Assembly (NCBI GenBank): GCA_019112765.1
Contig: DXIU01000092.1
Span: forward strand, 1-58,691
Length of the DNA: 58,691 nt
DNA from: Candidatus Mediterraneibacter norwichensis
GTDB lineage: Bacteria; Bacillota; Clostridia; Lachnospirales; Lachnospiraceae
Reading direction: 5' to 3'
The notes below the pieces were generated by a model. That model did not search any database. It was not told the DNA's origin and saw only the letters and a list, made by a program, of their open reading frames with translations. Below, in pieces: positions 39,718 through 57,471 of the stretch. Within the stretch, counting starts at the first letter, position 1; each line of letters opens with the position of its first letter. The translations under genes were made by a program, and so were the position numbers.

Positions 39718-39993
39718 GCTGTTCTTCGGTATCGCGGCAATACACAAAGCGTCTGCGCCTCCCGGGAGCGAAGAGGAGGAAAGCGGATGCGGATCTGCCG
39801 TTCCGTCCTCCGGAATAAGGAGAGAAATATGAATAAATACTGCTGAATTTATTCAGAAAAATTCACTGATATTTTGGGATATGGAAAATACTGGAAGATT
39901 GAAATCTGTATCACAAATGTGTTATTCTATATAAAGAACGCAGGAGGATGGAGGCTTGAAGAAGGTTAAACACTTTATCGAAGGGGAACAGTG

Positions 39994-41091
39994 ATGGTAA
40001 CTATTAAAGAAATCGCGCAGAAATGCGGTGTTTCTATCGCAACAGTGTCCAATATATTAAACGATAAGCCAAATGCGAGTGAGGCTACAAGACAAAGAGT
40101 TCTGCAGGTTGTGAAAGAGCTGAATTATACGCCGAACAGCATTGCCAAGAATCTGAAGCTGAAAAAGAGTCAGGCGATTGGCGTGGTCGCGGAAGATCTT
40201 ACGGTTTTCTGTACTCCGGGTATTATCGACGGAATTACACAGTGCTGTGAAGAGAGGGGCTATCATGTGCTCCTGACAAATCTCCGTCTGTATAAAAAAT
40301 ATCAGGATGCCTACTACGCAAATGATTCTTTTGTGAAAATCGTGGATAAGGAAATCCGGGAGCTGCTCTCCAAACAGGTGGACGGGATTATCTACGTGAC
40401 AGCCCACGAACGGGTTCTGAAAAAATGTCTTCCGGAGCATCTTCCGGTTCCTGCCAGCATGGCGTACGGCTACAGCAAATCAGCCGAATATCCGTCGGTT
40501 GCCGTCGACGATAAAAACGGAGCGTATACCCTGATCCGCTATCTGACAGAGCGGGGGCACCGGTCCATTGGAGTGATTACGGGAAAGGGAGAAAGTATTC
40601 ATACCCATGACAGACTTCTCGGGTATCAGAAAGCCCTGTATGACCAGAAGATATTCTTTGATCCGGATATCGTAGTGGAGGGAGACTGGAAGCGGGAGAG
40701 CGGATATCAGAAGACAGATTATCTGCTGTCAAAAGGTGTGACTGCGATCTTCTGCATGAACGATATTATGGCCGGCGGAGTCTATGACCGCCTGGAAGAG
40801 AGAGGAATTCTTCCGGGAAAAGATATCTCTGTGGTAGGTTTTGATAACCGGGATCTGTCCAACTATTATAAACCGCCGCTTACGACGATCGCGCTTCCTC
40901 TGAGCAGCATCGGATACACAGCCTGCAGGGTTGTCATTGATATGATAGAGCAAAGGGAGCGGGGCGAAGAAGAAACGGCGCCGGAAAAACCCGGAGAGGT
41001 GCATGAAGCATGCAGACTTCTGATAAGGAATTCGGTAGTTGATCTGAATCCGCCGGAGAAAAAAAGCGGTACAGAGGGAAATCCAGGTTAA
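39994..41091 (+). CDS. LacI-family transcriptional regulator
   Basis: A 365-residue repressor. The N-terminal helix-turn-helix is VTIKEIAQKCGVSIATVSNILNDKP (the VSxATVSxxLN signature), followed by the hinge helix region SIAKNLKLKKSQAIGVV, which inserts in the minor groove at a central CG. The periplasmic-binding-protein-like effector domain runs from about 60 to 335. I take ATG 39994, 6 bases after AAGGGGA; a GTG three bases earlier is also in frame. It very likely binds the AAACGTTT palindromes in front of the three adjacent transcription units. A half-similar GGTTAAACACTTTA lies just before its own start. The effector is probably an arabinose-containing sugar. A strong terminator follows. 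Confidence 0.93.
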   Translation: MVTIKEIAQKCGVSIATVSNILNDKPNASEATRQRVLQVVKELNYTPNSIAKNLKLKKSQAIGVVAEDLTVFCTPGIIDGITQCCEERGYHVLLTNLRLYKKYQDAYYANDSFVKIVDKEIRELLSKQVDGIIYVTAHERVLKKCLPEHLPVPASMAYGYSKSAEYPSVAVDDKNGAYTLIRYLTERGHRSIGVITGKGESIHTHDRLLGYQKALYDQKIFFDPDIVVEGDWKRESGYQKTDYLLSKGVTAIFCMNDIMAGGVYDRLEERGILPGKDISVVGFDNRDLSNYYKPPLTTIALPLSSIGYTACRVVIDMIEQRERGEEETAPEKPGEVHEACRLLIRNSVVDLNPPEKKSGTEGNPG

Positions 41092-41128
41092 TATATGCTT
41101 TTTTATGTAAAACAGTTAACTCGGAAGA

Positions 41129-41170
41129 AATAAGTGCACAAAATTCCTGAAAGGAAATTGTGCACTTATT
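41129..41170 (+). terminator. Terminator after the lacI-type gene
   Basis: AATAAGTGCACAA (41129-41141) and its complement ending at 41170 make a 13-base perfect stem; inner bases AATTCC/GGAAATT also pair. Confidence 0.75.
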
Positions 41171-41200
41171 ATAATGTTAAACGATATATTATATGTTTTA

Positions 41201-41229
41201 TTGACAAAACAGGCAGTCTATGATATAAA
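41201..41229 (+). promoter_or_regulatory. Predicted promoter of the GH127-permease-GH51 operon
   Basis: A perfect TTGACA (41201-41206), a 17-base spacer and TATAAA (41224-41229). A half-operator GTTAAACGATA lies 20 bases upstream and a full operator at 41307 lies downstream. Confidence 0.65.
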
Positions 41230-41306
41230 AAATAACAGTAAGAGAAGATGATTACGCAGATATATAGAGTCTATCAGGCGGCGTAATTATTTTTTTGCAG
41301 AATATG

Positions 41307-41318
41307 TTAAACGTTTAA
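41307..41318. promoter_or_regulatory. LacI-type operator O3
   Basis: A perfect 12-base palindrome TTAAACGTTTAA, 27 bases before the GH127 start codon and about 70 bases after the predicted transcription start. Confidence 0.75.
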
Positions 41319-41345
41319 TTAGACGTTGGAAACGGAAGGAGAGTT

Positions 41346-43298
41346 ATGAAAAAGGCAGCGAATTCAAGTATTTCTCTTAGAAATATCCATATTTCGGACG
41401 CGTTCTGGAGAAAGTACATCAGACTGGTGAAAGATGTAATCATTCCATACCAGTGGGACATTCTCAATGACAATCTGGAAGGAGTAGAGACGAGTCACTG
41501 CGTTGAAAATTTCAGGATTGCCGCGGGAGAAAAACAGGGCGAGTATTACGGGGCTGTTTTTCAGGATACGGACGTGGCAAAGTGGCTGGAGGCAGTCGGC
41601 TTTGTACTGAATTTTGAGAGAGATGAAAAACTGGAAAAACTGGCAGACGAGGCCATAGATCTGATCGGGCGGGCCCAGCAGCCGGACGGATATCTGAATA
41701 CATATTTCACAATCAAGGAACCGGGACTGCGCTGGACTAATCTTACGGAAGGCCATGAGCTGTATACTGCCGGCCATATGATCGAAGCGGCAGTGGCGTA
41801 CTATGAATCCACAGGCAAGGAAAAGTTTCTTGATATTGTATCGAAGTTCGCGGATCTTATCTGCAGGACATTCGGCCCTGAAGAAGGGCAGATACACGGC
41901 TATCCCGGACACCAGGAAATTGAGCTGGCACTGGTTAAGCTGTATCGTGTTACGGGGAAAGAGCGGTATCTGGAGATGGCCGGATACTTTATTGATGCCC
42001 GGGGACAGGGAGAGAATTATTTTCTTAAAGAGATAAAATCGGAGAAGTATAAACTGCTTATGCCGGAATTTGTGAATTATGATCCGGTTTATTCCCAGTC
42101 TGATCTTCCGGTCCGGGAGCAGCAGAAGGCGGAAGGCCATGCCGTGCGGGCGGTATATATGTACAGCGCGATGGCGGATCTGGCCTGTGAGTATGAAGAT
42201 AAAACATTGTTTGATGCCTGCAGCAGACTGTGGAAAAATATCGTAAATAAACAGATGTATATTACAGGCAGTATCGGCTCATCCGGGATACTGGAGCGTT
42301 TTACGACAGATTATGATCTGCCCAATGACTATAACTATTCGGAGAGCTGCGCGTCAATCGGACTTGCCATGTTCGGCAAGAGGATGGCGGATATTACGAA
42401 AGACGCGTCCTATATGGACACAGTGGAGAGAGCGCTGTACAATACACTGCTCTCCGGCATTGCCATGGACGGGAAAAGCTTTTTCTATGTGAACCCGCTG
42501 GAGGTATGGCCGCCCAGCTGCATGCCGAAGACGTCGAAAGAACATGTAAAGCCGGTGCGTCAGACATGGTACGGAGTGGCATGCTGCCCGCCGAATATTA
42601 CAAGAACACTGGCATCACTCGGACAGTATATTTATTTTCAGGAGAAGGACAGGATTTATACAAATCTCTACATATCCAACCAGGCAGATGTGGAAATGAA
42701 CGGTGTGAACTTCCATCTGGAACTGAGCGGTGATTTTCCGTGGAAAAACCAGATGAAGTTTCAGATCCGCGCGGAGAGGGAGGCGCAGGCATCGTTCTAT
42801 TTCCGGATTCCCGCGTATGCGCGTGAATTCACGATCCGGAAAGACGGACAGAATGTTGAATTTACGGTCGAGAACGGATACGCGAAAATAGAGGGCAGCT
42901 TCCGTGACGCTGTACTGGAGATCTCTTTTGAGGCTCCGGCGGAGTTTGTTCACGCAAATCCTCAGGTGCGGGCAGATTCCGGAAAGACAGCGCTGGTAAA
43001 AGGTCCTCTTGTGTACTGCCTGGAGGAAGCGGACAACGGATCCAATCTGGCGTCTGTATTTGTACAGTCGGATCAGGAGATACAGGAGGTGTATGAGAGC
43101 GGACTTCTCGGAGGGTGTTCGGTTCTCAAAGTCCCGGGAAAGAAGATTTCCGGGGAAAGCTGGGACGGACAGACTCTGTACAGGAGGGGAGGCCCGCCTG
43201 TCCTTGAGGAGACAGAGCTTACTTTTGTTCCTTACGGATACTGGGGAAACCGGGACAAGGGAGAAATGCTCGTCTGGGTAAAAGAATTATTAAAATAG
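41346..43298 (+). CDS. GH127 beta-L-arabinofuranosidase, HypBA1-like
   Basis: A 650-residue cytosolic enzyme without signal peptide. GH127 enzymes of the HypBA1 type remove beta-L-arabinofuranose from oligosaccharides by a cysteine-nucleophile mechanism on a zinc-thiolate centre. The zinc ligands and nucleophile are visible: Glu333 and Cys335 in SESCASIGLAMFGKRM, Cys413-Cys414 in ACCPPNITRTLASLGQYIY. The (alpha/alpha)6 barrel motifs QQPDGYLNTYFT and GHELYTAGHMIEAAVAYYE are typical. It opens an operon with two permeases and GH51, so its substrate probably arrives through that transporter. GAAGGAGAG precedes the ATG. Confidence 0.93.
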   Translation: MKKAANSSISLRNIHISDAFWRKYIRLVKDVIIPYQWDILNDNLEGVETSHCVENFRIAAGEKQGEYYGAVFQDTDVAKWLEAVGFVLNFERDEKLEKLADEAIDLIGRAQQPDGYLNTYFTIKEPGLRWTNLTEGHELYTAGHMIEAAVAYYESTGKEKFLDIVSKFADLICRTFGPEEGQIHGYPGHQEIELALVKLYRVTGKERYLEMAGYFIDARGQGENYFLKEIKSEKYKLLMPEFVNYDPVYSQSDLPVREQQKAEGHAVRAVYMYSAMADLACEYEDKTLFDACSRLWKNIVNKQMYITGSIGSSGILERFTTDYDLPNDYNYSESCASIGLAMFGKRMADITKDASYMDTVERALYNTLLSGIAMDGKSFFYVNPLEVWPPSCMPKTSKEHVKPVRQTWYGVACCPPNITRTLASLGQYIYFQEKDRIYTNLYISNQADVEMNGVNFHLELSGDFPWKNQMKFQIRAEREAQASFYFRIPAYAREFTIRKDGQNVEFTVENGYAKIEGSFRDAVLEISFEAPAEFVHANPQVRADSGKTALVKGPLVYCLEEADNGSNLASVFVQSDQEIQEVYESGLLGGCSVLKVPGKKISGESWDGQTLYRRGGPPVLEETELTFVPYGYWGNRDKGEMLVWVKELLK

Positions 43299-43311
43299 GA
43301 GGGAAAAGGAA

Positions 43312-44211
43312 ATGAAGAAATTTTTGTATTCCAAAAAGGCGGCGCCGTATGTGTTTATTCTTCCCTTTGTGGTGACCTTTGCAGTGTTCTGGATTGTTCC
43401 TCTGATCAAATCCGGGATTATGAGCACGCAGAAGATTCTGCCGGGGCAGGAAACATTTATCGGGCTGGATAATTTTACCCGTCTTCTGGGAGACAGAGTG
43501 TTCATGACAGCTGTGGCAAACAGCTTTAAATATATGATATTTACGCTGATTCTGCTTATTCCGATTCCGATGCTGATGGCCTGCATGGTGAACTCAAAAC
43601 TGGTGAAAGGGAAGATAAAAGGATTTTTTAAATCCTCCTTATTTATCCCGGCTCTGACTTCCGTTGTAGTTGCAGGTACAATCTTCCGGCTGATTTTCGG
43701 CGAAATGGATACAGCTCTCATGAATCAGTTTATCGGCCTGTTCGGCGCGGAACCGATCAAATGGCTGAAAGGGGCGACGACAGGATTTATCGCTCTTCTG
43801 ACTCTGGCGTGCTGGCGCTGGTGGGGCGTAAATATGATGTATTTTCTGTCCGGCCTGCAGAGTATTCCGGAAGATTACTATGAGGCGGCATCCATAGACG
43901 GCGCTTCGACATGGCAGAAGTTTATAAAAATTACGATTCCTCAGCTCAAGCCTACCCTGGTCTATGTGCTTACGATCAGTATCTACGGCGGCCTGGCGAT
44001 GTTCAATGAAAGCTACATGCTGTATTCGGGCAACAATTCCCCGAACAACATCGGTCTGACCATCGTAGGATATCTGTACCGGCAGGGAATTGAGAAAAAC
44101 GATATGGGTTACGCCAGCGCCGTAGGCGTTGTGCTGCTTGTAATTGTTCTGGCAATTAACATTGTGCAGCTGACCGCGACGGGAACCTTTAAAAAGGAGG
44201 ATGACAGATAA
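43312..44211 (+). CDS. Sugar ABC transporter permease (MalF/AraP type)
   Basis: A 299-residue membrane protein with six helices of the CUT1 family, which imports oligosaccharides. The ATPase-docking EAA loop reads EAASIDGASTWQKFIKITIPQLKP (near residues 190-213). AGGAGGGAA precedes the ATG, 13 bases after the GH127 stop. Its TAA shares a base with the next permease start (TAATG), so the two are translationally coupled. Confidence 0.93.
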   Translation: MKKFLYSKKAAPYVFILPFVVTFAVFWIVPLIKSGIMSTQKILPGQETFIGLDNFTRLLGDRVFMTAVANSFKYMIFTLILLIPIPMLMACMVNSKLVKGKIKGFFKSSLFIPALTSVVVAGTIFRLIFGEMDTALMNQFIGLFGAEPIKWLKGATTGFIALLTLACWRWWGVNMMYFLSGLQSIPEDYYEAASIDGASTWQKFIKITIPQLKPTLVYVLTISIYGGLAMFNESYMLYSGNNSPNNIGLTIVGYLYRQGIEKNDMGYASAVGVVLLVIVLAINIVQLTATGTFKKEDDR

Positions 44212-45056
44212 TGAAAAAGAACAAAAGCAGTAAACTGTTTGTAAAAATCTGTATGATCGTTTTATTTCTCCTGATTGCGGTTATGATTCTTCTTCCGTTC
44301 TGGGCGATCTTTGTAGGAACCTTCCAGGAAGGCAGTATGCTGATCCGGTACGGCCTGAACCTGAAGCTGGATTTGTCAGCGGCGAATTTCGACAACTGGG
44401 TTATGCTCTTTACAGATTCGGGGGATTATTTTACATGGTTCTTTAACAGTGTAATTCTGACAGTGGCCCAGGTCGTGCTTACCCTGCTGATCAGCGCTTT
44501 CGTTGCCTATGGATTCGCGGCGTATGAGTTCCGGTTTAAGAATTTCTTCTTTATCTGCGTGCTTCTGATCATGTCCGTGCCATTTGAGATGATCATGCTT
44601 CCTCTGTATGTGCAGATCAACGACATGGGACTTTCGGACAGCTACGCGGCTGTGCTGCTGCCGTTTATCGCCAATGCCATGACGATTTTCTTCTTCCGCC
44701 AGTACCTTTCGGGAATGCCGAAAGAGATCATTGAGGCGGGAAGAATTGACGGGGCGACGGAGTACGGAATTTTCTTCAAACTGATCATGCCGATTATGAA
44801 ACCGTCCTTTGCGGCTATGGCCATACTGAACGGTATGAACAGCTGGAACAACTTCCTCTGGCCGCTGCTTGTACTGCGTTCCAGCGACAAATACACACTT
44901 CCGATCGGACTGAATACTCTGATCACACCGTATGGGAACAACTATGATCTTCTGATCGTCGGTTCATTCTTCTCTGTGCTGCCGATCCTGATCCTGTTCC
45001 TGTTCTTCCAGAAATATTTTATCGAAGGAATGACGGCGGGAGCCGTAAAAGGTTAA
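44211..45056 (+). CDS. Sugar ABC transporter permease (MalG/AraQ type)
   Basis: A 281-residue CUT1 permease, partner of the preceding gene. The EAA loop reads EAGRIDGATEYGIFFKLIMPIMKPS. It has six predicted helices and the GNNYDLLIVGSFFSVLPILILFLFFQ C-terminal end. AAAGGAGGAT lies inside the preceding gene, before its ATG. No ATPase is encoded in the locus. As in many Firmicutes, a shared MsmK/UgpC-type ATPase elsewhere is expected. Confidence 0.93.
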   Translation: MKKNKSSKLFVKICMIVLFLLIAVMILLPFWAIFVGTFQEGSMLIRYGLNLKLDLSAANFDNWVMLFTDSGDYFTWFFNSVILTVAQVVLTLLISAFVAYGFAAYEFRFKNFFFICVLLIMSVPFEMIMLPLYVQINDMGLSDSYAAVLLPFIANAMTIFFFRQYLSGMPKEIIEAGRIDGATEYGIFFKLIMPIMKPSFAAMAILNGMNSWNNFLWPLLVLRSSDKYTLPIGLNTLITPYGNNYDLLIVGSFFSVLPILILFLFFQKYFIEGMTAGAVKG

Positions 45057-46613
<1,557 letters not shown>

Positions 46614-46710
46614 ACGTATTATATTAGCAAAATTATGTATAATATGTACAAAAAATAATGAATAGAATAGTGCACAACAGATAAAAATGATGAATAAAAG
46701 TAAAAAATTA

Positions 46711-46739
46711 TTTACAAAACGTCTGCTGTGTGCTATATC
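46711..46739 (+). promoter_or_regulatory. Predicted promoter of the binding-protein gene
   Basis: TTTACA (46711-46716), a 17-base spacer and TATATC (46734-46739). An operator follows 13 bases downstream, overlapping the expected early transcribed region. Confidence 0.5.
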
Positions 46740-46752
46740 TATAGATAACAAG

Positions 46753-46765
46753 TAAAACGTTTAAT
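46753..46765. promoter_or_regulatory. LacI-type operator O4
   Basis: TAAAACGTTTAAT with the AAACGTTT core of O1-O3, 14-26 bases after the -10 box and just before the ribosome site of the binding-protein gene. A repressor here would block initiation or early elongation. Confidence 0.65.
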
Positions 46766-46781
46766 AAAGGGAGGAAAAAAG

Positions 46782-48110
46782 ATGAACAAGAAAAAAGCAA
46801 TAGCCCTTATGCTTGGAGCCGCAATGCTGGTCGGAAGTCTGACAGGCTGCGGCGGAAAAGAATCCGAAGAGCCGAAGAAAACCGCTGACGGCGAAACCGT
46901 CCTGGAGTTCTGGACATTTACAGAAATCCACGGCGATTTCTACGAGACCATGGCTGAGAAATGGAATGAGGCAAATCCGGACAAGAAAGTAAGCATTAAT
47001 GTAAATGTTATGCCTTACGACGATATGCACAACAAACTGCAGATCGCGCTGAACTCCGGAGAAGGAACACCGGATTTCGTTGATATCGAGCAGGGCAAAT
47101 TCGCGAACTTTACCCAGGGCACACCGGCACTGATGGATCTGACAGAAGCGGCCAGCCAGTATACAGCTGACGGCAATATCGTTCAGTCCCGTCTGGATCT
47201 TTACAGCAAAGACGGAAAACTGTACGGACTTCCGACACATGTAGGCGCGACAGTTGCTTTCTATAACACAGAACTTCTTGAGGCGGCAGGCATTGATTAT
47301 ACAACAATCGAGACATGGGATGACTTCAAAGAAGCAGGAAGCAAATACTATGAAGAAACCGGAAAATATCTGGGAACAGCAGACACAAGCGCTCTCTGGA
47401 CAGAGAACCTGCTGATGGCTGAACTGGGCGGCGAGTATACAGACGGCGACACAGTTACAGTAAACAGCCCGGAGATGGTAGAGACTATGACAATTCTGAA
47501 AGATCTCTATGACGCACATGCAATCGGAACTGTACCGGGAGGAAATCCGGACAAGGAAGAAGCATACGGTGCATTTAACAGCGGCGACTTCGCATGCGCG
47601 ATCATGCCGATGTGGCAGATGTCAAGATACACAAGCTACATGCCGGATCTGTCCGGTAAGATTGCTATCGCGGTAGCTCCGCAGCTTGAGAGCGGACAGA
47701 AAGTATCTGTCGGCGGCGGCGGAACAGGTACAGCAGTTGTAGCAGACAAGCCGAACTCTGAACTGGCGGCTGAATTCCTTGCATATGCAAAACTGTCTGA
47801 AGAAGGCAACATTGAGATCTGGAACATGCTTGGATTCGATCCCTGCAATACAGCGGTATGGGATAACGAAGAAGTAACAAACAACCCGGACAACCAGTAC
47901 GTACAGTACTTCCAGAACAATCCGTTTGATGTCCTCAAAGAGATCAGAGACAGCATCGTCGGACTGGAGTCCCACGCATCTGCTTCTTATCCGTCAATCA
48001 ACAACATGTTTACAACTGTAACACTGAACTCCATCTTTGAAGACGGAACAGATGTACAGACAGCTCTGGATCAGGCACAGACAGATCTGCAGAACGAGCT
48101 GGGACAGTAA
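46782..48110 (+). CDS. Sugar ABC transporter substrate-binding lipoprotein
   Basis: A 442-residue CUT1 solute-binding protein (SBP_bac_1 type). The N-terminus MNKKKAIALMLGAAMLVGSL ends in the lipobox LTGC, so Cys24 is lipidated and the protein is tethered outside the membrane. The mature part begins with a charged linker followed by TVLEFWTFTEIHGDFYETMAEKWNE. It should capture the oligosaccharide for the two permeases upstream. It has its own promoter and operator, separate from the operon, which would allow higher expression than the permeases. GGGAGG precedes the ATG. Confidence 0.93.
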   Translation: MNKKKAIALMLGAAMLVGSLTGCGGKESEEPKKTADGETVLEFWTFTEIHGDFYETMAEKWNEANPDKKVSINVNVMPYDDMHNKLQIALNSGEGTPDFVDIEQGKFANFTQGTPALMDLTEAASQYTADGNIVQSRLDLYSKDGKLYGLPTHVGATVAFYNTELLEAAGIDYTTIETWDDFKEAGSKYYEETGKYLGTADTSALWTENLLMAELGGEYTDGDTVTVNSPEMVETMTILKDLYDAHAIGTVPGGNPDKEEAYGAFNSGDFACAIMPMWQMSRYTSYMPDLSGKIAIAVAPQLESGQKVSVGGGGTGTAVVADKPNSELAAEFLAYAKLSEEGNIEIWNMLGFDPCNTAVWDNEEVTNNPDNQYVQYFQNNPFDVLKEIRDSIVGLESHASASYPSINNMFTTVTLNSIFEDGTDVQTALDQAQTDLQNELGQ

Positions 48111-48394: not shown

Positions 48395-51300
48395 ATGTAC
48401 ATAGCAGATTTACATATTCATTCCAGATATTCCAGAGCCACCAGCAAAGACTGTACTCCGGAGCATCTGGATCTGTGGGCACGCCGCAAAGGGATCCATA
48501 TTGTGGGGACCGGAGATTTTACACATCCGGCCTGGCGTCAGGAGCTGGAGGAAAAACTGACGCCTGCGGAGGACGGGCTGTATGTACTGAAAGAGGAGTA
48601 CCGTATCCGGGACGGCGGCGTACCGGGAGAGATTATCCCGCGGTTTGTCATTACGGGAGAGATCAGTTCCATTTATAAGAAAAACGGCCGGGTGCGGAAA
48701 GTCCACAGCCTGATCCTGCTCCCCGGACTGGAAGACGCGCAGAGGATATCCGCGAAGCTGGAACAGATCGGAAACATCCACTCCGACGGACGCCCGATTC
48801 TGGGGCTGGACTGTCATGATCTGCTTGAAATTGTGCTGGAACTGTGTCCGTCTGCGGTATATGTCCCCGCCCATATCTGGACGCCTCATTTTTCTTTGTT
48901 CGGCGCATTCTCCGGGTTTGATACGGTGGAGGAGTGCTTTGAAGATCTGACTCCTTATATCCATGCGATGGAGACTGGGCTGTCCTCGGATCCGCCTATG
49001 AACTGGAGGGTTTCCGCGCTTGATAAGTATCAGCTGATCTCCAATTCGGACGCTCACTCCCCGGCAAAACTGGGGAGGGAGGCGAATCTCCTGGACTGCG
49101 TCATGTCCTACGAAGGGCTGAGCCGGGCGGTTCAGACCGGAGAAGGGCTTTCCGGGACCATAGAGTTTTTCCCGGAGGAAGGCAAGTATCATATGGACGG
49201 ACACCGGAAATGCAGCCTGTGTCTGACTCCTTCTGAAACTGTGAAATACGGAGGAAAATGCCCTGTGTGCGGAAGAAAACTGACCATAGGGGTCTCTCAC
49301 CGTGTGGAAGAGCTGGCCGACCGGGAGGAGGGCTATATCAGGAAAGACGCGAAAGGATTTGAGAGCCTTGTGCCCCTTCCAGAGGTGATCAGCGCTTCCG
49401 CAGGCAGCTCGGCGGCATCCGGAAAGGTGCGGAAAGAGTATGAGAAAATGCTCTTCCGGCTGGGGGCGGAATTTGAGATTCTGAGAAATCTTCCTCTGGA
49501 GGACATCCGCCGGGTATCCGGCGGAAGAATTGCGGAAGGCATCCGACGGCTCCGCGGCGGCGAGGTGGAGCGCATTCCGGGATTTGACGGAGAGTATGGC
49601 ATTATCCGGCTGTTCTGCGCGGATGAGCTGAATAATGTGGAAGGACAGATGGATTTCTTCGGCCTGCTGGGCAGCGCAGGTGATGAAAAAGTAAAACCGG
49701 AAAGAGAAGAGAATGCCGGAGCATCCGCAGCTGCGGCGGAAGAACAGCCGCAGATGCAGGAGCAAAGGACTCCGGCGGCAAGGGAAGCGCTGAATCCCGA
49801 GCAGAAACATGCCGTTGTCTCTGTATCTTCTGCAGTCGCGGTAAAAGCCGGGCCGGGAACGGGCAAAACAAAGACCCTGACATCCCGGATCCGGTATCTT
49901 CTGGAAAACCGGCGGGTAAGACCTTCCGAGATCACTGCGGTAACATTTACGAATCAGGCAGCGGAAGAGATGCGTCAGCGCCTGGGGAAAGCGGCGGGGA
50001 AGAAACAGGGCGCCCGTTCGGTCCTGATCGGAACATTCCATGCCATCTGTCTGGAATTTCTGAAAGACGAGGGAGAGAAATTCTGCCTGGCGGGAGAGGG
50101 GGAGCGGAAGCGGCTTGCCGCTCTTGCCGCAGCGGAAACAGGAATAACGCTCAGCATCGGAGAGTTCCTTGAGCAGGTGTCCCGCCGGAAGTCCGGCGTG
50201 CCGGATACCGGGGAACTGTCCGGCAGTGAGGAGTCTCTCTGGAAGAAAACATTTGAAAATTATGAGAACCGGAAAAAAGAACAGAAGCTGTATGACTTTG
50301 ATGATCTGCTCCTCTGCGCCGCGGACAGGTTTGAACAGGGACCGGTTCCGGAGAAATGGAAGAAACGTTTTCGCTATCTTCTGGTGGACGAGTTCCAGGA
50401 TATTAACCCGGTTCAGCAGCGGCTGATCCGTATCTGGAGCCGTCCGGGCAGGGAGCTTTTTGTTATCGGAGATCCGGATCAGGCGATTTATGGATTCCGG
50501 GGCGCGGATCCCTTTTGCTTTGAAAGGCTGGCAGAGGAAAACCGGGATCTGGAAACGATCCGCCTGAGGGAGAATTACCGCTCAACTCCTCAGATTATAA
50601 ATGCAGCTTCCGCGCTCTGGAATACAAGGCAGGAAAAGAACCCATCTGCCTGCGCGCAGGAAGACTGCGCGGCGGGAGCGCCGGAGCAGAGAAGCGCGCT
50701 GCGGCCCAACCGTCCGGACGGCGTGCCGGTCCGCCTGGTGAAGGCGGGAAGTCCCATGGGAGAAGCGGTATTTATTGCGAAAGAGATTAACCGTATGGCC
50801 GGAGGAATCGGGATGCTGGAGGCCCATCAGGCAGCCTGGAAGGACGGGGACCGGATCCTGCGCGGATTCGGGGATATTGCGGTGCTCTGCCGGACAAACC
50901 GCCAGGCAGATCTGGTCGAAACATGTCTCCGGAAAGAAAGCATTCCTTATATCCGCGCGGGAAGAGAAGAGTTCCTGCAGGACGATACTGTACAGGGCAG
51001 TCTGGCGTTTTTCCGGTATCTGGAGAACCCGGAGGATACGGGCGCGGCGCAGGAGTGCGCTGCAGCGGTCTGGAAACTGGAGTGGAATGCTGTGACGGAA
51101 GAAATTATATCCGCTGCGGCAGAAACATTCCGCCCTTTATATAAGAAGAAAAAGCCGGTGAAGTTTGTGGAAGAATGGGTAAAGGAAATGCAGCTTGAAA
51201 GCAGTGAGGCCATGCGGAAACTTCTTCAGATGACGGTATTTTACGGAAGCATGCAGGAATTTATGGATATACTGGCGCTTGGCGCGGAAGGGGACCTGAA

Positions 51301-51631
51301 GCGCGCATCGAACCGGCGGCATACGGCAGAAGCAGTGACGGTTATGACGCTTCATGGATCCAAGGGGCTGGAATTTCCGGCAGTCTTTATCTATGGAGTG
51401 AACAAGGGGAGCATCCCTCTGGAGGGCGGAGACGGGAGCGTGGATCCGGAAGAAGAACGCCGGCTGTTTTATGTGGGAATGACCAGAGCGGAAGAGGAAC
51501 TGATCCTGACGACATCCGGTGAACCGTCAGATTTTATCCGCAGTCTGGATAACAATCTGGTTCAGCGGGAAGACGCGGAGCAGGAGAAGAAGAAAGCGGA
51601 ATGCCGTCAGATGAGCCTGTTTGAGCTGTAG
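48395..51631 (+). CDS. Endonuclease Q-like PHP nuclease fused to a UvrD/PcrA-type helicase
   Basis: A 1078-residue natural fusion. Residues 1-425 resemble endonuclease Q: the PHP metal motif DLHIHS at 5-10, ISNSDAHSP later, and a zinc finger with Cys273, 276, 289 and 292. Endonuclease Q nicks DNA 5' to deaminated bases such as uracil and hypoxanthine in archaea and some bacteria. Residues about 466-1060 are a superfamily 1A helicase: GPGTGKT (Walker A), VDEFQDIN (Walker B), GDPDQAIYGFRGAD, LRENYRST, TLHGSKGLEF and VGMTRAEE. Two peptides resemble beta-clamp-binding motifs: QMDFF at 418-422, at the end of the nuclease part, and QMSLF at 1072, two residues from the C-terminus. A deaminated-base repair machine that nicks and unwinds at the replication clamp is the likely role. 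Confidence 0.88.
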   Translation: MYIADLHIHSRYSRATSKDCTPEHLDLWARRKGIHIVGTGDFTHPAWRQELEEKLTPAEDGLYVLKEEYRIRDGGVPGEIIPRFVITGEISSIYKKNGRVRKVHSLILLPGLEDAQRISAKLEQIGNIHSDGRPILGLDCHDLLEIVLELCPSAVYVPAHIWTPHFSLFGAFSGFDTVEECFEDLTPYIHAMETGLSSDPPMNWRVSALDKYQLISNSDAHSPAKLGREANLLDCVMSYEGLSRAVQTGEGLSGTIEFFPEEGKYHMDGHRKCSLCLTPSETVKYGGKCPVCGRKLTIGVSHRVEELADREEGYIRKDAKGFESLVPLPEVISASAGSSAASGKVRKEYEKMLFRLGAEFEILRNLPLEDIRRVSGGRIAEGIRRLRGGEVERIPGFDGEYGIIRLFCADELNNVEGQMDFFGLLGSAGDEKVKPEREENAGASAAAAEEQPQMQEQRTPAAREALNPEQKHAVVSVSSAVAVKAGPGTGKTKTLTSRIRYLLENRRVRPSEITAVTFTNQAAEEMRQRLGKAAGKKQGARSVLIGTFHAICLEFLKDEGEKFCLAGEGERKRLAALAAAETGITLSIGEFLEQVSRRKSGVPDTGELSGSEESLWKKTFENYENRKKEQKLYDFDDLLLCAADRFEQGPVPEKWKKRFRYLLVDEFQDINPVQQRLIRIWSRPGRELFVIGDPDQAIYGFRGADPFCFERLAEENRDLETIRLRENYRSTPQIINAASALWNTRQEKNPSACAQEDCAAGAPEQRSALRPNRPDGVPVRLVKAGSPMGEAVFIAKEINRMAGGIGMLEAHQAAWKDGDRILRGFGDIAVLCRTNRQADLVETCLRKESIPYIRAGREEFLQDDTVQGSLAFFRYLENPEDTGAAQECAAAVWKLEWNAVTEEIISAAAETFRPLYKKKKPVKFVEEWVKEMQLESSEAMRKLLQMTVFYGSMQEFMDILALGAEGDLKRASNRRHTAEAVTVMTLHGSKGLEFPAVFIYGVNKGSIPLEGGDGSVDPEEERRLFYVGMTRAEEELILTTSGEPSDFIRSLDNNLVQREDAEQEKKKAECRQMSLFEL

Positions 51632-51729
51632 CGGGTCTGCGGCGATCCGGCATGACGGACACGCAGACAGCGTCCGGACTGCGGAAAGCCGGGACTGCGG
51701 GAAAATCTGCGGGAAAATCCGGGATTTGA

Positions 51730-51758
51730 TTGACATTGCCGCCTCCATAGTATACGAT
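51730..51758 (+). promoter_or_regulatory. Predicted promoter of the S1 protein gene
   Basis: A perfect TTGACA (51730-51735), a 17-base spacer and TACGAT (51753-51758), 51 bases before the start. Confidence 0.55.
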
Positions 51759-51809
51759 AGCGAAAGCAGAGACAGCGTGAGGATGCGCTGCCCAAAAGGA
51801 GAGGAAGGA

Positions 51810-52637
51810 ATGAAATTAGGAGAAAAGCAAGTGTTAACTGTTGTCAGGGTTGTTGATTTCGGCGTGTATCTGGGGGACGATACCCAGAGGGTTCTCCTGC
51901 CGAAAAAACAGGTGCCGGAGGGCATCGAGCCGGGAGATCCTGTAGAGGTTTTCCTCTACAAAGATTCCTCGGACCGGCTGATTGCAACTACAAATGAGCC
52001 GAAGCTTACGCTGGGGAAGCTGGCTGTGCTGGATGTTGTGGATGTAGGCCGGGTCGGCGCTTTTCTGGACTGGGGGCTGGAGAAAGATCTTCTGCTGCCG
52101 TTCCGGGAGCAGACTTCACGGGTAGCGAAGGGGGACAGATGCCTGGTCAGTCTCTATATAGATAAAAGCCAGCGCCTTTGTGCGACCATGCGGATTTATT
52201 CTCTGCTGCGTACAGACTCCCCGTATAAGAGAAATGATATGGTGAAAGGGACCGTCTATGAGCTCAGCAGGGACTACGGCGCATTTGTCGCTGTGGACAA
52301 TCAGTTTTCAGCTTTGGTTCCCCGAAGCGAGATGGCGGGCAGACTGGAGATCGGTCAGGAAATCGAAGCGAGAGTAACCGCGGTCAAGCCGGACGGAAAA
52401 CTGGATCTGAGTATCCGGGGAAGAATCCCGGAGCAGATGGACGCGGATGCGCGTATGATTCTGAAAAAGCTGGAAGCCGGCGGCGGTGTGCTGCCGTTTA
52501 CCGATAAATCGGATCCGGAGGAGATCAGGCGTGAGTTCGGGATCAGCAAAGCAGCGTTTAAAAGAGGCGTGGGGCGGCTTTTAAAACAGGGAGAAATCCG
52601 GATTGCTGAAACAGAGGGGAAAATTATTAAAATCTGA
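51810..52637 (+). CDS. S1 RNA-binding protein, CvfB-like
   Basis: A 275-residue protein with three S1-type beta-barrels followed by a winged helix, the CvfB/YitL layout. S1 domain signatures are GAFLDWGLEKDLLLP in the second and GTVYELSRDYGAFVAVDNQFSALVP in the third; the C-terminal winged helix is EEIRREFGISKAAFKRGVGRLLKQG. CvfB binds RNA and affects virulence gene expression in staphylococci. Its role here is probably RNA-related but unspecified. I start at ATG 51810 behind GGAGAGGAAGG, with a promoter upstream; an in-frame TTG at 51621 lies before that promoter. A terminator follows. Confidence 0.9.
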   Translation: MKLGEKQVLTVVRVVDFGVYLGDDTQRVLLPKKQVPEGIEPGDPVEVFLYKDSSDRLIATTNEPKLTLGKLAVLDVVDVGRVGAFLDWGLEKDLLLPFREQTSRVAKGDRCLVSLYIDKSQRLCATMRIYSLLRTDSPYKRNDMVKGTVYELSRDYGAFVAVDNQFSALVPRSEMAGRLEIGQEIEARVTAVKPDGKLDLSIRGRIPEQMDADARMILKKLEAGGGVLPFTDKSDPEEIRREFGISKAAFKRGVGRLLKQGEIRIAETEGKIIKI

Positions 52638-52899: not shown

Positions 52900-55800
52900 A
52901 TGAAAATGGTAGCAGTGCGCAGAATGCTCGCTGCTGGTATGACAGCGGTGTTAATCGGACAGGGGGCTGTAATTCCGGCTGAAGCACAGAATGAGCCCGT
53001 GACGCTGCCGGATCCGGTATTTTCTCTTGGTTTTGAAAGCCTCAGTCAAAGCGCGGGAGAAGCGGTTACAGGAGGGATTACGGCAGAGACAGGAGAGTCA
53101 GTAGAAGTACATGATACGGTGACTGCTCAGGAAGGAAGAGGCGGAGGAAAAGCAGTGCTTCTGGACAATACGGCAGGAAACAAAGGCTATCTCTCTACGG
53201 CAAATACGGAAAAGCTGAATCCGGAGGACATTACTGTTTCCGTATGGCTGAAAAGAAAAAGTACAACGAATAATACAGAGGGACGTATCCTCTGGAATAA
53301 AGAGACTCATCAGACAGATGGAAACTGCTGGGTAACGGACGGATGGTTTATGGGATGGACAAACGGAGAGTCCATGGCGTTTGTGACGGACGGCTCCAAT
53401 CTGGCAGTTCAGAAAGGAAATTCTGATGATATTCTTCCGATGGATGAATGGGTCAATGTTGTTTCTACATTTGACAGTGAAACCGGAGAAATGGTGATTT
53501 ACCTGGACGGCGACAGATTCGCGTCTGCTACAGTCCCGGGAGCATCTATTACACAGAATCCGGACGCAGCTGAACTTATGATAGGAAATTCCGGATATGC
53601 CAATGGCGAAGGAATCGGCTGTGTAATCGACGATATCCGGATTTATGATCAGGCGCTGAATCAGGAACAGATCGGACAGCTTGCCGGCTTGTCGGATCAG
53701 CAGTTCGCGGACGCAGATGCAGAGAATATCAGTGTAGCGTCCCGCGTCAGTAAAGATTTCACACTCCCTGTGGAAGGAGACCGCGGCTCTGCGATTACAT
53801 GGGAGTCAGACAATGATGCCATTCGGATCGGAGAAAACGGAGCGGCTGCCGTTACCCGCGGTACAGAGGATATATCTGTGAAATTAACCGCCACAGTTAC
53901 TTATGGGCAGGCGTCCGCGGTAAGAACTTTTGATGTTACGGTTGTTAAGGAAAATGAACCTGTGGAAGGCCTTCAGAAACTGAGCTATGATGAGATCATA
54001 GACGTAGGCGGAACAATCGGAACCAGACTGAAAGACGCTGTGAACAATTACGCTATGGACTATCTGTACGGTCAGAGGATGGACGGTTATCTGAGAGAAT
54101 ATGAAAACCACAGTCATTCAGGATGGAGCTGGCTTGAAGGCGAACAGCCGGGCAAATGGCTTGAGTCCATGGCAAATGCCAGATGGATGGATGAGGACGG
54201 CGCTATAGAGGAGGCTGTTACTGTTGTGGTTGACCGTCTGGCGGCGACGCAGACAACAGAAAACAGGGGCGCCACAGGCTATAATCAGTTTGCGGGATAT
54301 CTTGGAAATGCTACGGCGGAAATCCGGAATACCAGGCCGGTAAAGGGTATGGATCCCTATGAAATGTATTCCACTTTAAACGGACTGATCAATGTGTATC
54401 AGAATTACAGATCCGATAACCCGGCTCTTGCGGAAAAGGCTCTGGACTGCGCGGTCAAACTTGCGGATTATCTTGTGGCGACCATCGGGGATGAGGATAC
54501 ATTTGTTCCTTATCAGGACGGAACTCTTTCTACTATGCATAAAACAGAGTTCTGGCCGCTGGTAAATACAAACGGTGTCACAATAGCCGGCCATGACGTA
54601 CACCAGGGATGGGAAGGCACTTTATTGATAGATCCCATGATGAATCTGTCAGAAGTGGTGAAAACTGTGTCCGGTCAGGAAGAAAAATCCCAGGTTTATT
54701 CCGAGTGGGTTGACTGGGCAATAAATAACATTGACAAATGGGCGTCCAGTTATGGCGGATACGGAGACACTCCCTACGAGGATCTGGATAAAGTCGCGTC
54801 CGGAGAGATGGGAATCGATGAAATCCAGCATTATGTACATGCCCATACATTCCAGATGAACTTCCTGGGATTCCTGAAAAAATATCAGGAAACAGGCGAC
54901 AGCTCTTATCTGGACAAGGTAGTGGGAGCGTGGGAAGATATCTCATCCAGGCAGAAATACATTACCGGCACGGTGTCTGTCGGAGAACACTATGAGGCAG
55001 GACATAATCTTCCCAATACCGGAAATGTGGGCGAAACATGCGCGACCAATTCCTGGACGCTTCTGAATAATAATCTTTTTGAACTGACAGGAGACGCGGC
55101 ATATCAGCAGACAGTGGAAGATATTATTTTCAATCACATGTTTGCTACGTCAACGATTGACGGAGACGGATACAGCTACCACAGGCCGCTGAACGGAACC
55201 ACGGACCGTTTCTTCACCGGTCCGGACTGCTGCTCCTCCTCAGGAATGAGAATGCAGTCTTATGTACCGTATTATATTTATTCGAAATCAGACTCAGAGG
55301 TGTATGTAAATCAGTTCATTGAAAGCGAAGTAAATATTACTCTGGAAAACGGAAACACAATCCACCTGAAACAGACAACGGATTATCCGGAGGCGGATGA
55401 GATTGTTCTTGAAGTGACAGATGCTTCGGCGGCTACAGTTCTTAATATCCGTGTGCCTGACTGGGTGAAAGAACCGGCAGTCAGGATTAACGGTGAGGCT
55501 GTTGACGCAGTGACAGCCGGAAGCTATATTGCCGTAACTGTAAATGACGGAGACAGAGTTGAGATCACATATCCTTCCGAGCTTACATGGGTTGAGGGCG
55601 ATAATTCCAATGACGGCCTGTGGGCTATGAAAAAAGGACCTATGGTTTATGCCATTGCGGCGGCATTTATGTCAGAGGAAGAGTCACAGGAAGCATATGG
55701 TTCGGATATTGCGATTGTAAGTGCAACAAGCGTACTGAAACCGGAGGCCGGACAGCCGGTTCAGACAGAAGAAAAAGTAGATTTCCAGGATGAGCGTATC

Positions 55801-57471
55801 CTGGGTGCGGGATATCGGGTAACGATGACGACATCCCGTGGGGAACAGGAAGTGACAGTTGTACCGTACGCGAATATCGGACAGTGGTACCGCATCGGTG
55901 AGGAGCGGCCGTCCGACTATAACAGCGCGGCGCGCTATCCTTATGCTATCTGGATTTCTGCTATTATGTCCGATTATCCGGAGGCTCCGGAAGAGCAGTC
56001 CACACCGGTGGTGCACTATGATTTTGATACAACAGAAGGAAGTGTTGTAAAAGATATATCCGGAAACGGCAATGACGCTGTCTTTAGGGGAGGTATGTCT
56101 GTACAGGACGACGGAGTACTTGGAAGTTCCGCATATTTTAACGGGACAGACGGTTATGTGGAGATGCCGGATGATGTGATTTACGGTCTCCATAATATGA
56201 CGATTTCCACCTGGGTGAAACCGGATTCTCTTGGAAACTGGGCGAGAATCTTTGACTTTGGTTCAGAGCTGGATCCGCCGTATCCGAATCTGTTTCTCAC
56301 TGTAAACAGCGGAAATAATAATATGAGACTTGCGTTTGAAACAGGCGACAGTTCTCAGATTAATGCCGGCGCCGTGCTCCAGACAGGGCAGTGGCAGCAT
56401 CTTGCCGTAGTTATAAACGGCGTGACTGCGTCCTTATATCTGAATGGCGAAGAGATCGGCGAGGCTTCCGACTTCCAGTTTGTGCCTATGCTGATTTCGA
56501 ATATGACCAGCAACCTGCTCGGGAAATCACATTATACTGCTGACAGTTATTTTCGGGGCGGCATGGATGATTTCCGCATTTACAACAGAGCACTGTCAGC
56601 CGCTGAAATTACCATGCTCTCCAATGGTGAAGAGCCGGTACGGGAGATTCAGACAGTGTCAGATCCTGAAGACGTGGAGACAACCGCAGGCGTGGCTCCT
56701 GCCCTTCCGGAAAAAGCCAATGTTACATATGTGGATGGTACGAACGGTACAGAACCCATTGTATGGGAAGATATTCCGGAAGAAAACTATGCGCAGGCAG
56801 GCACATTTACAGTGAAAGGAACAGTAGGAACCTTCGAGGTAGAGATTACTGTGACCGTAAAAGCGGAAGAAGAGCCGGAGGAGCCGGAGCTGACAGAGCT
56901 GCAGGTAACAGCACCGGAGAAAACAGTATATGAAATCGGAGAGGAACTGGACCTGACAGGTCTGAAGGTAACAGCCATATACTCGGACGGTACAACGCAG
57001 GATGTGACATCGGATGTGGAGATCAGCGGCTTTGACTCTGAAACAGCGGGAGAAAAGATCATTACCGTATCTTACGGTGAGCTGGATACTTCTTTCACAG
57101 TGACGGTGGAAGAGAAGGAGGATCCGACAGATCCGAGTGACCCGACAGATCCGAGTGACCCGACAGATCCGAGTGACCCGACAGATCCGAGCGACCCGGC
57201 AGATCCGAGTGACCCGGCGGATCCGAGTGACCCGGCGGATTCGAGTGATCCGGGCAGCCCAAGTGACCCGGTGGATCCGACCGGCCCCGCAGATCCGTCT
57301 TTACCGTCAGATGGAGGTCAGGGAGACGGAGCAGGTACGGTAAATCCGGAGGAACAGACTGCGGTACAGACCGGCGACAGCCTGTGCCTGACGCCTTATC
57401 TTGCAGCGCTGATTCTGGCAGGTACAGTATCCGGTATTATATTAATCCGGAAGAAACGCAGTGAAAATTAA
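52900..57471 (+). CDS. Giant wall-anchored DUF1680 (GH127-like) protein with LamG domains
   Basis: A 1523-residue secreted protein. In order: signal peptide (1-30); LamG-like domain (about 31-265); atrophied Ig-like domain (about 270-350); a divergent DUF1680/GH127-like catalytic domain (about 355-1025); a second LamG-like domain (about 1035-1243); Big_4 (about 1246-1328) and Big_3 (about 1329-1407) Ig domains; an Asp-Pro-Ser-rich linker; and a TAVQTGD/hydrophobic/RKKRSEN sorting tail. The zinc-thiolate residues of GH127 are conserved: Glu712 and Cys714 in GETCATNSW, Cys777-Cys778 in PDCCSSSGM. It is therefore probably an active surface arabinofuranosidase or related hydrolase of a separate subfamily. 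No LacI-type operator is seen upstream, unlike the regulon genes. GGAGGG precedes the ATG. Confidence 0.82.
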   Translation: MKMVAVRRMLAAGMTAVLIGQGAVIPAEAQNEPVTLPDPVFSLGFESLSQSAGEAVTGGITAETGESVEVHDTVTAQEGRGGGKAVLLDNTAGNKGYLSTANTEKLNPEDITVSVWLKRKSTTNNTEGRILWNKETHQTDGNCWVTDGWFMGWTNGESMAFVTDGSNLAVQKGNSDDILPMDEWVNVVSTFDSETGEMVIYLDGDRFASATVPGASITQNPDAAELMIGNSGYANGEGIGCVIDDIRIYDQALNQEQIGQLAGLSDQQFADADAENISVASRVSKDFTLPVEGDRGSAITWESDNDAIRIGENGAAAVTRGTEDISVKLTATVTYGQASAVRTFDVTVVKENEPVEGLQKLSYDEIIDVGGTIGTRLKDAVNNYAMDYLYGQRMDGYLREYENHSHSGWSWLEGEQPGKWLESMANARWMDEDGAIEEAVTVVVDRLAATQTTENRGATGYNQFAGYLGNATAEIRNTRPVKGMDPYEMYSTLNGLINVYQNYRSDNPALAEKALDCAVKLADYLVATIGDEDTFVPYQDGTLSTMHKTEFWPLVNTNGVTIAGHDVHQGWEGTLLIDPMMNLSEVVKTVSGQEEKSQVYSEWVDWAINNIDKWASSYGGYGDTPYEDLDKVASGEMGIDEIQHYVHAHTFQMNFLGFLKKYQETGDSSYLDKVVGAWEDISSRQKYITGTVSVGEHYEAGHNLPNTGNVGETCATNSWTLLNNNLFELTGDAAYQQTVEDIIFNHMFATSTIDGDGYSYHRPLNGTTDRFFTGPDCCSSSGMRMQSYVPYYIYSKSDSEVYVNQFIESEVNITLENGNTIHLKQTTDYPEADEIVLEVTDASAATVLNIRVPDWVKEPAVRINGEAVDAVTAGSYIAVTVNDGDRVEITYPSELTWVEGDNSNDGLWAMKKGPMVYAIAAAFMSEEESQEAYGSDIAIVSATSVLKPEAGQPVQTEEKVDFQDERILGAGYRVTMTTSRGEQEVTVVPYANIGQWYRIGEERPSDYNSAARYPYAIWISAIMSDYPEAPEEQSTPVVHYDFDTTEGSVVKDISGNGNDAVFRGGMSVQDDGVLGSSAYFNGTDGYVEMPDDVIYGLHNMTISTWVKPDSLGNWARIFDFGSELDPPYPNLFLTVNSGNNNMRLAFETGDSSQINAGAVLQTGQWQHLAVVINGVTASLYLNGEEIGEASDFQFVPMLISNMTSNLLGKSHYTADSYFRGGMDDFRIYNRALSAAEITMLSNGEEPVREIQTVSDPEDVETTAGVAPALPEKANVTYVDGTNGTEPIVWEDIPEENYAQAGTFTVKGTVGTFEVEITVTVKAEEEPEEPELTELQVTAPEKTVYEIGEELDLTGLKVTAIYSDGTTQDVTSDVEISGFDSETAGEKIITVSYGELDTSFTVTVEEKEDPTDPSDPTDPSDPTDPSDPTDPSDPADPSDPADPSDPADSSDPGSPSDPVDPTGPADPSLPSDGGQGDGAGTVNPEEQTAVQTGDSLCLTPYLAALILAGTVSGIILIRKKRSEN
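57119..57300 (+). repeat. 18-base tandem linker repeat (DPTDPS units)
   Basis: Repeats of an 18-base unit like GATCCGAGTGACCCGACA, about eight, encode DPTDPS/DPADPS linker. Array length is likely variable by slippage. Confidence 0.88.

Follow-up and report, generated by a model that had tools for sequence, protein, structure and literature searches.

Archaeal endonuclease Q (EndoQ; PfuEndoQ and TkoEndoQ, structures 5zb8 and 7k30) is a protein of about 420 residues without a helicase, which nicks DNA 5' of a lesion to leave a 3'-OH and a 5'-phosphate (PMC4357722) and is stimulated by PCNA via a C-terminal PCNA-interacting peptide (PIP) box (PMC4858679). The processing that follows incision was drawn as a set of alternatives in the 2015 paper PMC4357722. 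Here we describe a gene at positions 48395-51631 of a 58,691-nucleotide contig of Candidatus Mediterraneibacter norwichensis (DXIU01000092.1; the whole stretch is called the window), whose product, as judged from its sequence, combines an EndoQ nuclease, a UvrD-type motor and two likely clamp-binding peptides in one protein, an arrangement that is widespread among its relatives. No study of an EndoQ-UvrD fusion was found in the open-licence PMC literature. Based on the features described below, we consider it fairly probable that the protein is a clamp-tethered nucleotide-incision-repair enzyme for deaminated bases, hypoxanthine above all.

With archaeal EndoQ the fusion shares nearly the whole domain, the metal ligands, the zinc finger, the pocket residues and a clamp motif placed directly behind the nuclease domain (the PIP box in archaea; PMC4858679), but it differs by its motor, its two QxxLF-like peptides of bacterial type and the insertions within its PHP domain, which are apparent in the alignment to 5zb8. 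RecBCD and other helicase-nucleases likewise combine a superfamily 1A (SF1A) motor with a nuclease, and clamp binding has been reported for RecB (PMC13254535). The sites of RecBCD action are double-strand ends, whereas the nuclease of the fusion would by homology be a lesion-specific nickase.

The nuclease and helicase halves

The sequence-only reading of this DNA had proposed an EndoQ-like PHP nuclease joined to a complete SF1A helicase, with a DLHIHS motif (residues 5-10), a four-cysteine finger (C273, C276, C289, C292) and the peptides QMDFF and QMSLF, the latter ending two residues before the C-terminus. All of these elements lie where it had placed them, and matches in sequence and fold bear out the joining of both enzymes in one unbroken frame (Table 1). 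A chance or assembly artefact was rejected in view of complete long frames in 68 of 80 loci from named genomes and by frames of at least 900 residues in 34 of the 51 matches within the genus.

Using phmmer, PfuEndoQ (5zb8) matches residues 4-406 over nearly its whole length (chain residues 5-382; E=2.3e-48), and 7k30 matches the nuclease half with E=1.1e-47. An AlphaFold2 model computed from a 44-row alignment (mean predicted local confidence, pLDDT, 79.2; predicted TM-score, pTM, 0.55) was matched by Foldseek to 5zb8 with E=4.8e-29 and a TM-score by target of 0.85, the range over solved EndoQ structures being 0.84-0.86; because of the pTM of 0.55, the placing of the two halves relative to each other is unsure. 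A failure of the N-terminal part to resemble EndoQ had been named beforehand as evidence that would count against the reading; the identity instead held in both sequence and fold. The accompanying check with the TIGR00375 hidden Markov model gave a divided answer, with a clear match of 169.4 bits that nevertheless stays below the curated cut-off of 326.6. Among the matches listed, this cut-off is reached in only 2 of 398 genomes of the phylum, at least 207 of which contain a TIGR00375 match. Since the score falls short, the domain appears to represent a separate EndoQ subfamily rather than a TIGR00375 equivalog, set apart from known EndoQ by the helicase fusion and the two bacterial clamp-like peptides.

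To compare individual residues, the metal and catalytic positions of PfuEndoQ (H8, H10, E76, H84, H139, D193, H195) and its pocket positions (H139, G169, S171) were mapped by eye on the phmmer alignment to 5zb8. H8, H10, D193 and H195 have PHP roles. The roles of E76, H84, H139, G169 and S171 follow PMC8307549, according to which H139, G169 and S171 exclude T and A from the pocket. The counterparts H7, H9, E89, H104, H160, G195, S197, D219 and H221 are conserved without exception in all 108 other fused proteins (the window's own being set aside), all 33 short, helicase-less proteins of the fused type and all 30 canonical EndoQs from Bacillota; the pocket counterparts among them are H160, G195 and S197. 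One of the short proteins, L229, is a frame break that is counted as standalone in the residue, peptide and tree tallies, the short set without it numbering 32. By alignment, the catalytic and pocket residues are thus intact, and the standalone EndoQs of the Bacillus type (TIGR00375/COG1379) share the mapped catalytic set. Of the finger cysteines, C273, C289 and C292 occur in all 108 other fused proteins; C276 varies (Cys in 99/108 fused, 29/33 short and 0/30 canonical proteins).

The second half matches the Pfam families UvrD-helicase and UvrD_C over residues 466-1041 (E=2.2e-62 and 5.2e-40), and the model matches the UvrD structure 4c2u (E=4.9e-38, TM-score by target 0.71). Among 22 helicase-motif residues checked, 18 are invariant in the 108 other fused proteins and the remaining four (G700, N727, L992, A1032) are kept in 105-107. 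Fold and motifs are common to the UvrD, PcrA and Rep helicases, but in a tree with 20 other helicases of the UvrD type the fused ones, represented by 55 of the 109 proteins, stand on a side of their own with support 97. The score against the PcrA model TIGR01073, 301.6, does not reach its curated cut-off of 911.2, and by eye the C-terminus is unlike that of the PcrA-length helicases of the genus, a QxSLF-like peptide standing in place of the PcrA-type tail. A missing autoinhibitory 2B subdomain was considered and is not supported: the inter-motif region is only about 30 residues shorter, with a median of 247 residues between two helicase motifs (75/109 fused proteins) versus 275-281 (6/20 other helicases), figures that cover the proteins in which both patterns were found.

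GajB-type UvrD models also match the helicase part, best over residues 465-749. Such a match could hint at anti-phage defence, in which the protein would nick and unwind phage DNA containing uracil or other non-standard bases, as suggested for Bacillus EndoQ; an antiviral role of bacterial EndoQ is relayed in a review (PMC8307549). We would, however, expect GajB matches from any UvrD helicase, and the distribution of the gene, considered below, also bears on this explanation.

Table 1. Parts of the EndoQ-UvrD fusion gene, in window coordinates
Feature	Position	Strand	Basis or remark
EndoQ-UvrD fusion gene	48395..51631	+	ATG to stop, 1078 aa plus stop; ribosome-binding (Shine-Dalgarno)-like AGGAAGGTG directly 5'
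Endonuclease Q domain, residues 1-406 (PHP nuclease, zinc finger, C-terminal part)	48395..49612	+	phmmer to 5zb8, Foldseek, invariant residues
Zinc-finger cysteines C273-C292	49211..49270	+	Cys conservation in 108 other fused proteins
Internal clamp-binding-like peptide QMDFF, residues 418-422	49646..49660	+	strict motif and fixed GQ offset in homologues
Variable, probably disordered linker, residues 423-465	49661..49789	+	pLDDT below 50 at 415-463; mostly without consensus in the alignment
SF1A UvrD-type helicase, residues 466-1045	49790..51529	+	Pfam, Foldseek to UvrD, motif residues
C-terminal clamp-binding-like peptide QMSLF, residues 1072-1076	51608..51622	+	strict motif in homologues; Q1072 and L1075 invariant in the 44-row alignment A1

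Two peptides resembling clamp ligands

Ligands of the bacterial clamp follow the consensus QL[S/D]LF, more generally QxxLF, and the clamp itself is a dimer with two sites (PMC12309361); the clamp protein, DnaN, is present in the source genome. We searched for the pattern Q-x-[SDTNE]-[LFMIV]-[FLMI], using 300 shuffles as control. In the last 35 residues it occurs in 101 of the 109 complete fused proteins (shuffles: mean 4.35, maximum 11), most commonly as QMSLF (44), QLSLF (26) or QLSFF (10). Homologues have thus kept the C-terminal QxSLF-like peptide, the lack of which had been the second result named in advance as adverse. The first 40 linker residues contain the pattern in 91 of 107 fused proteins (shuffles: mean 4.95, maximum 10), the denominator excluding L201 and L250, in which the anchor is absent; here QMSFF (19) and QMDFF (13) prevail, so the fourth place is often F, not L.

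The pattern is found in none of the 33 short fused-type proteins (last 40 residues searched, L229 included) and in none of 20 helicases of the UvrD/PcrA type taken from related genomes (search of the last 35 residues, which gave a single loose match). A C-terminal QxxLF is likewise found in none of the 30 canonical EndoQs, in contrast to the bacterial EndoQs considered in PMC4858679, which are said to carry C-terminal clamp motifs.

Both peptides of the window's protein fall within stretches of pLDDT below 50 (residues 415-463 and 1068-1078), and conserved QxxLF-like peptides in stretches predicted to be unfolded are what a beta-clamp ligand looks like at this level. In all 109 fused proteins the internal GQ lies exactly 15 residues past the anchor at the end of the nuclease domain, a fixed spacing that could equally mean an intramolecular contact. 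It would suit an explanation in which neither peptide is a clamp ligand, the internal GQMxFF packing on its own protein and the C-terminal QMSLF binding another partner. Due to the low predicted confidence at both peptides, and hence the lack of predicted packing, we judge this explanation to be quite improbable and favor clamp binding.

Distribution and descent of fused and short forms

An EndoQ match is found in 51 of the 58 genomes of the genus, with 34 long (at least 900 residues), 13 short (at most 500) and 4 intermediate frames, and in 30 of 392 genomes of the order (16 long and 14 short by the listed frames). For the phylum we used a profile (A2) representing the EndoQ domain of fused-type proteins, which splits two kinds: the main fused-type matches score at least 224 bits and the best canonical one 146.5, some fragments of fused-type genes falling below 224. 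Main fused-type matches occur in 60 of 398 genomes, 46 with a long frame, 10 with only a short one and 4 in between. This count derives from 64 of 65 main matches (the second piece of G684 being left out), with lower-scoring pieces of G606 and G782 uncounted, of which G606 may add one genome; long again denotes a frame of at least 900 residues, the helicase part having been aligned directly only in the genus, the order and the named loci.

At least 587 relatives exist in named genomes; from these we retained the 80 with the best scores, comprising 68 complete long genes, 2 truncated by a contig end and 10 short ones, L229 among the latter. Both these loci and the 30 canonical EndoQs (L164-L193, taken from the phylum scan) are best-scoring sets, so neither is random. 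Long records include Faecalicatena, Eisenbergiella, Diplocloster, Blautia schinkii, Enterocloster, Flavonifractor, Anaerotruncus, Dethiobacter, Propionispora and Acetivibrio. From the protein sets we left out cut or frame-broken fused entries (L101, L111, L113, L123, L129), broken or partial short ones (L094, L119, L127), three exact duplicates, end-open loci and loci without a picked plus-strand frame (part of L274-L303).

Several single cases were observed in addition. Long and short fused-type copies occur together in four genomes (G446, G719, G743, G765), sharing one contig in two of them (about 9.4 kb apart in G446 and 5 kb in G743), and G591 has a canonical EndoQ beside the fused one. 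The metagenome assembly of Treponema sp. UBA4873 (L250) holds a complete fused gene, by contamination or by transfer out of Bacillota. In L094, L123 and L229 a frame break, located inside one half or at the junction of the two, divides the fused gene; it may be sequencing error or real fission.

In a tree of 150 EndoQ domains (quick method, SH-aLRT support), the fused-type proteins form one side against 8 canonical ones with support 100, across a very long branch. The label fused or standalone changes at least 15 times on this tree, 7 changes being forced by well-supported branches; the count of 15 is slightly high, since L229, labelled standalone, is a broken frame. Most short forms sit within groups of fused ones, but the first-branching L154 is short. 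A standalone ancestor, one fusion and then repeated loss would fit this topology. Between the nuclease and helicase halves, distances are correlated (r=0.83, a value reached in 0 of 500 permutations), as expected for one fusion inherited as a unit, and the nuclease is the more conserved half (mean p-distance 0.30 versus 0.51 for the motor).

This common course of the two halves argues against the anti-phage explanation, as does the placing of the gene beside cvfB, dnaE and pfkA in part of the genus. Moreover, no relative was found in 72,556 plasmid or 50,697 phage records, and of the 19 stretches of viral contigs that fit the search pattern none is a relative, so a mobile or viral origin was rejected; we regard a defence function as very improbable.

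Taking all families together, we examined 103 fused and 29 short loci; within 3.5 kb downstream of the gene, cvfB is present in 15 of the fused and 10 of the short ones, and dnaE in 12 and 9, respectively. Within part of the genus, the two forms thus occupy the same place, in surroundings of cvfB, dnaE and pfkA; the three genes were named by eye, with NCBIfam and Pfam models confirming them in L100 (fused) and L088 (short). The sequence that follows the short forms gave no helicase match better than E=1, the one exception being L229, whose helicase is encoded in a different frame; the flanks searched were only 212-1506 bases in L114, L128, L154, L163 and L281. Without L229, 25 of the 32 short forms stop before the GQ position and the other 7 have GQ-less tails. 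In the sets examined, both peptides are therefore missing wherever the helicase is missing, and the nuclease persists with intact catalytic residues. Their joint loss suggests a role of clamp docking in the motor-coupled reaction; a plainer alternative is the simple deletion of everything past the nuclease domain. We also considered whether the helicase was kept elsewhere in the genome and rejected this, since no sister copy was seen in six short-form genomes (G009, G010, G015, G018, G019, G022): among the matches listed, their best helicases are 37-42% identical to the fused helicase, and helicase pieces of fused orthologues 56-60%.

Proposed function and genomic surroundings

The uracil glycosylase Ung is present in 55 of the 58 genomes of the genus, which weakens uracil as a main duty of the fusion. 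Models for EndoV and AAG, in turn, match in 0 of these 58 genomes each, both being detected in control genomes, with AlkA of the helix-hairpin-helix (HhH) type not searched; the absence holds only for the window's genus.

EndoQ could fill this gap, and the reading of the protein as a one-polypeptide machine for deaminated bases gains support, at the level of sequence, from the EndoQ identity, the invariant residues and the conserved peptides. We infer nicking (from homology and residue conservation), unwinding, and clamp binding with handover, as follows. The EndoQ domain would flip out hypoxanthine or uracil, perhaps also xanthine or an abasic (AP) site, and cut the strand on its 5' side, which would yield 3'-OH and 5'-phosphate ends. 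Motors of the UvrD type travel 3' to 5'; the fused motor would load at the nick and, travelling on the intact strand, peel off the lesion strand 5' end first, with a clamp-bound polymerase extending the 3'-OH. The two QxxLF-like peptides would dock on DnaN, possibly one per pocket of the dimer, and so position the enzyme at freshly replicated DNA, with the 3'-OH next to a polymerase, after which resynthesis, flap removal and ligation would follow. In this way the fusion would supply a motor without a second cut. The position of dnaE and cvfB just downstream of the gene in part of the genus is in favor of such a replication-linked role.

The same neighbourhood and the two clamp-like peptides would also suit a general replication-coupled nick-and-unwind enzyme, acting on mismatches, ribonucleotides or gaps, whose EndoQ pocket no longer serves deaminated bases and whose peptides direct it to new DNA. 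The distance of the fused-type subfamily from canonical EndoQ in the profile scores points the same way, but the T- and A-excluding pocket residues of PfuEndoQ are invariant and the missing EndoV and AAG leave a gap that EndoQ could fill, so we consider this alternative unlikely.

Several observations weigh against a clamp-tethered repair enzyme for deaminated bases. The strict C-terminal motif is absent in 8 of 109 fused proteins and the strict internal one in 16 of 107, and the fixed GQ spacing has the second interpretation given above. The TIGR00375 score remains under its cut-off. As 7 of the 58 genomes in the genus lack any match, the gene is dispensable, and as helicase-less short forms persist, the nuclease can work without motor and peptides. 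With Ung so common, uracil is probably not the main duty, and AlkA, which lies outside our searches, is another hypoxanthine glycosylase. Finally, the archaeal pathway drawing in PMC4357722 places a helicase step after a second cut by EndoV, which is missing here, and its EndoQ-alone branch proceeds by strand displacement and Fen1.

A more far-reaching version of the repair reading is a self-contained, replication-coupled hypoxanthine repair, in which one polypeptide nicks, unwinds and holds both clamp pockets, replacing EndoV and AAG in many Clostridia, and in which repeated in-place deletion of motor and peptides reverts the protein to a clamp-independent nickase; we put this forward tentatively, as a possibility that we would not yet bet on. 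The natural fusion names a likely next partner after EndoQ, a 3'-to-5' SF1A motor, with the clamp as organiser. Forms with and without the motor share a locus in a single genus, and this natural series allows the question to be tested directly. The fusion could also account for the handling of hypoxanthine by gut bacteria of the window's genus, in which EndoV and AAG are absent.

In the window itself, the fusion gene is preceded by an arabinoside-use cluster and followed by cvfB and then a GH127 protein, not by dnaE. The CvfB-like S1/winged-helix protein is listed at 51621-52637, but the TTG at 51621 overlaps the fusion gene and is probably not the true start, a likely one being the ATG at 51810 behind a AAGGAGAGGAAGG-like site. 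Three GH127 beta-L-arabinofuranosidase-like proteins are encoded at 12736-17994, 39991-48110 and 52900-57471, two of which are very large and contain LamG and Big domains. The cluster around the fusion gene further comprises ABC permeases, a solute-binding protein, a LacI regulator and an alpha-L-arabinofuranosidase-type protein.

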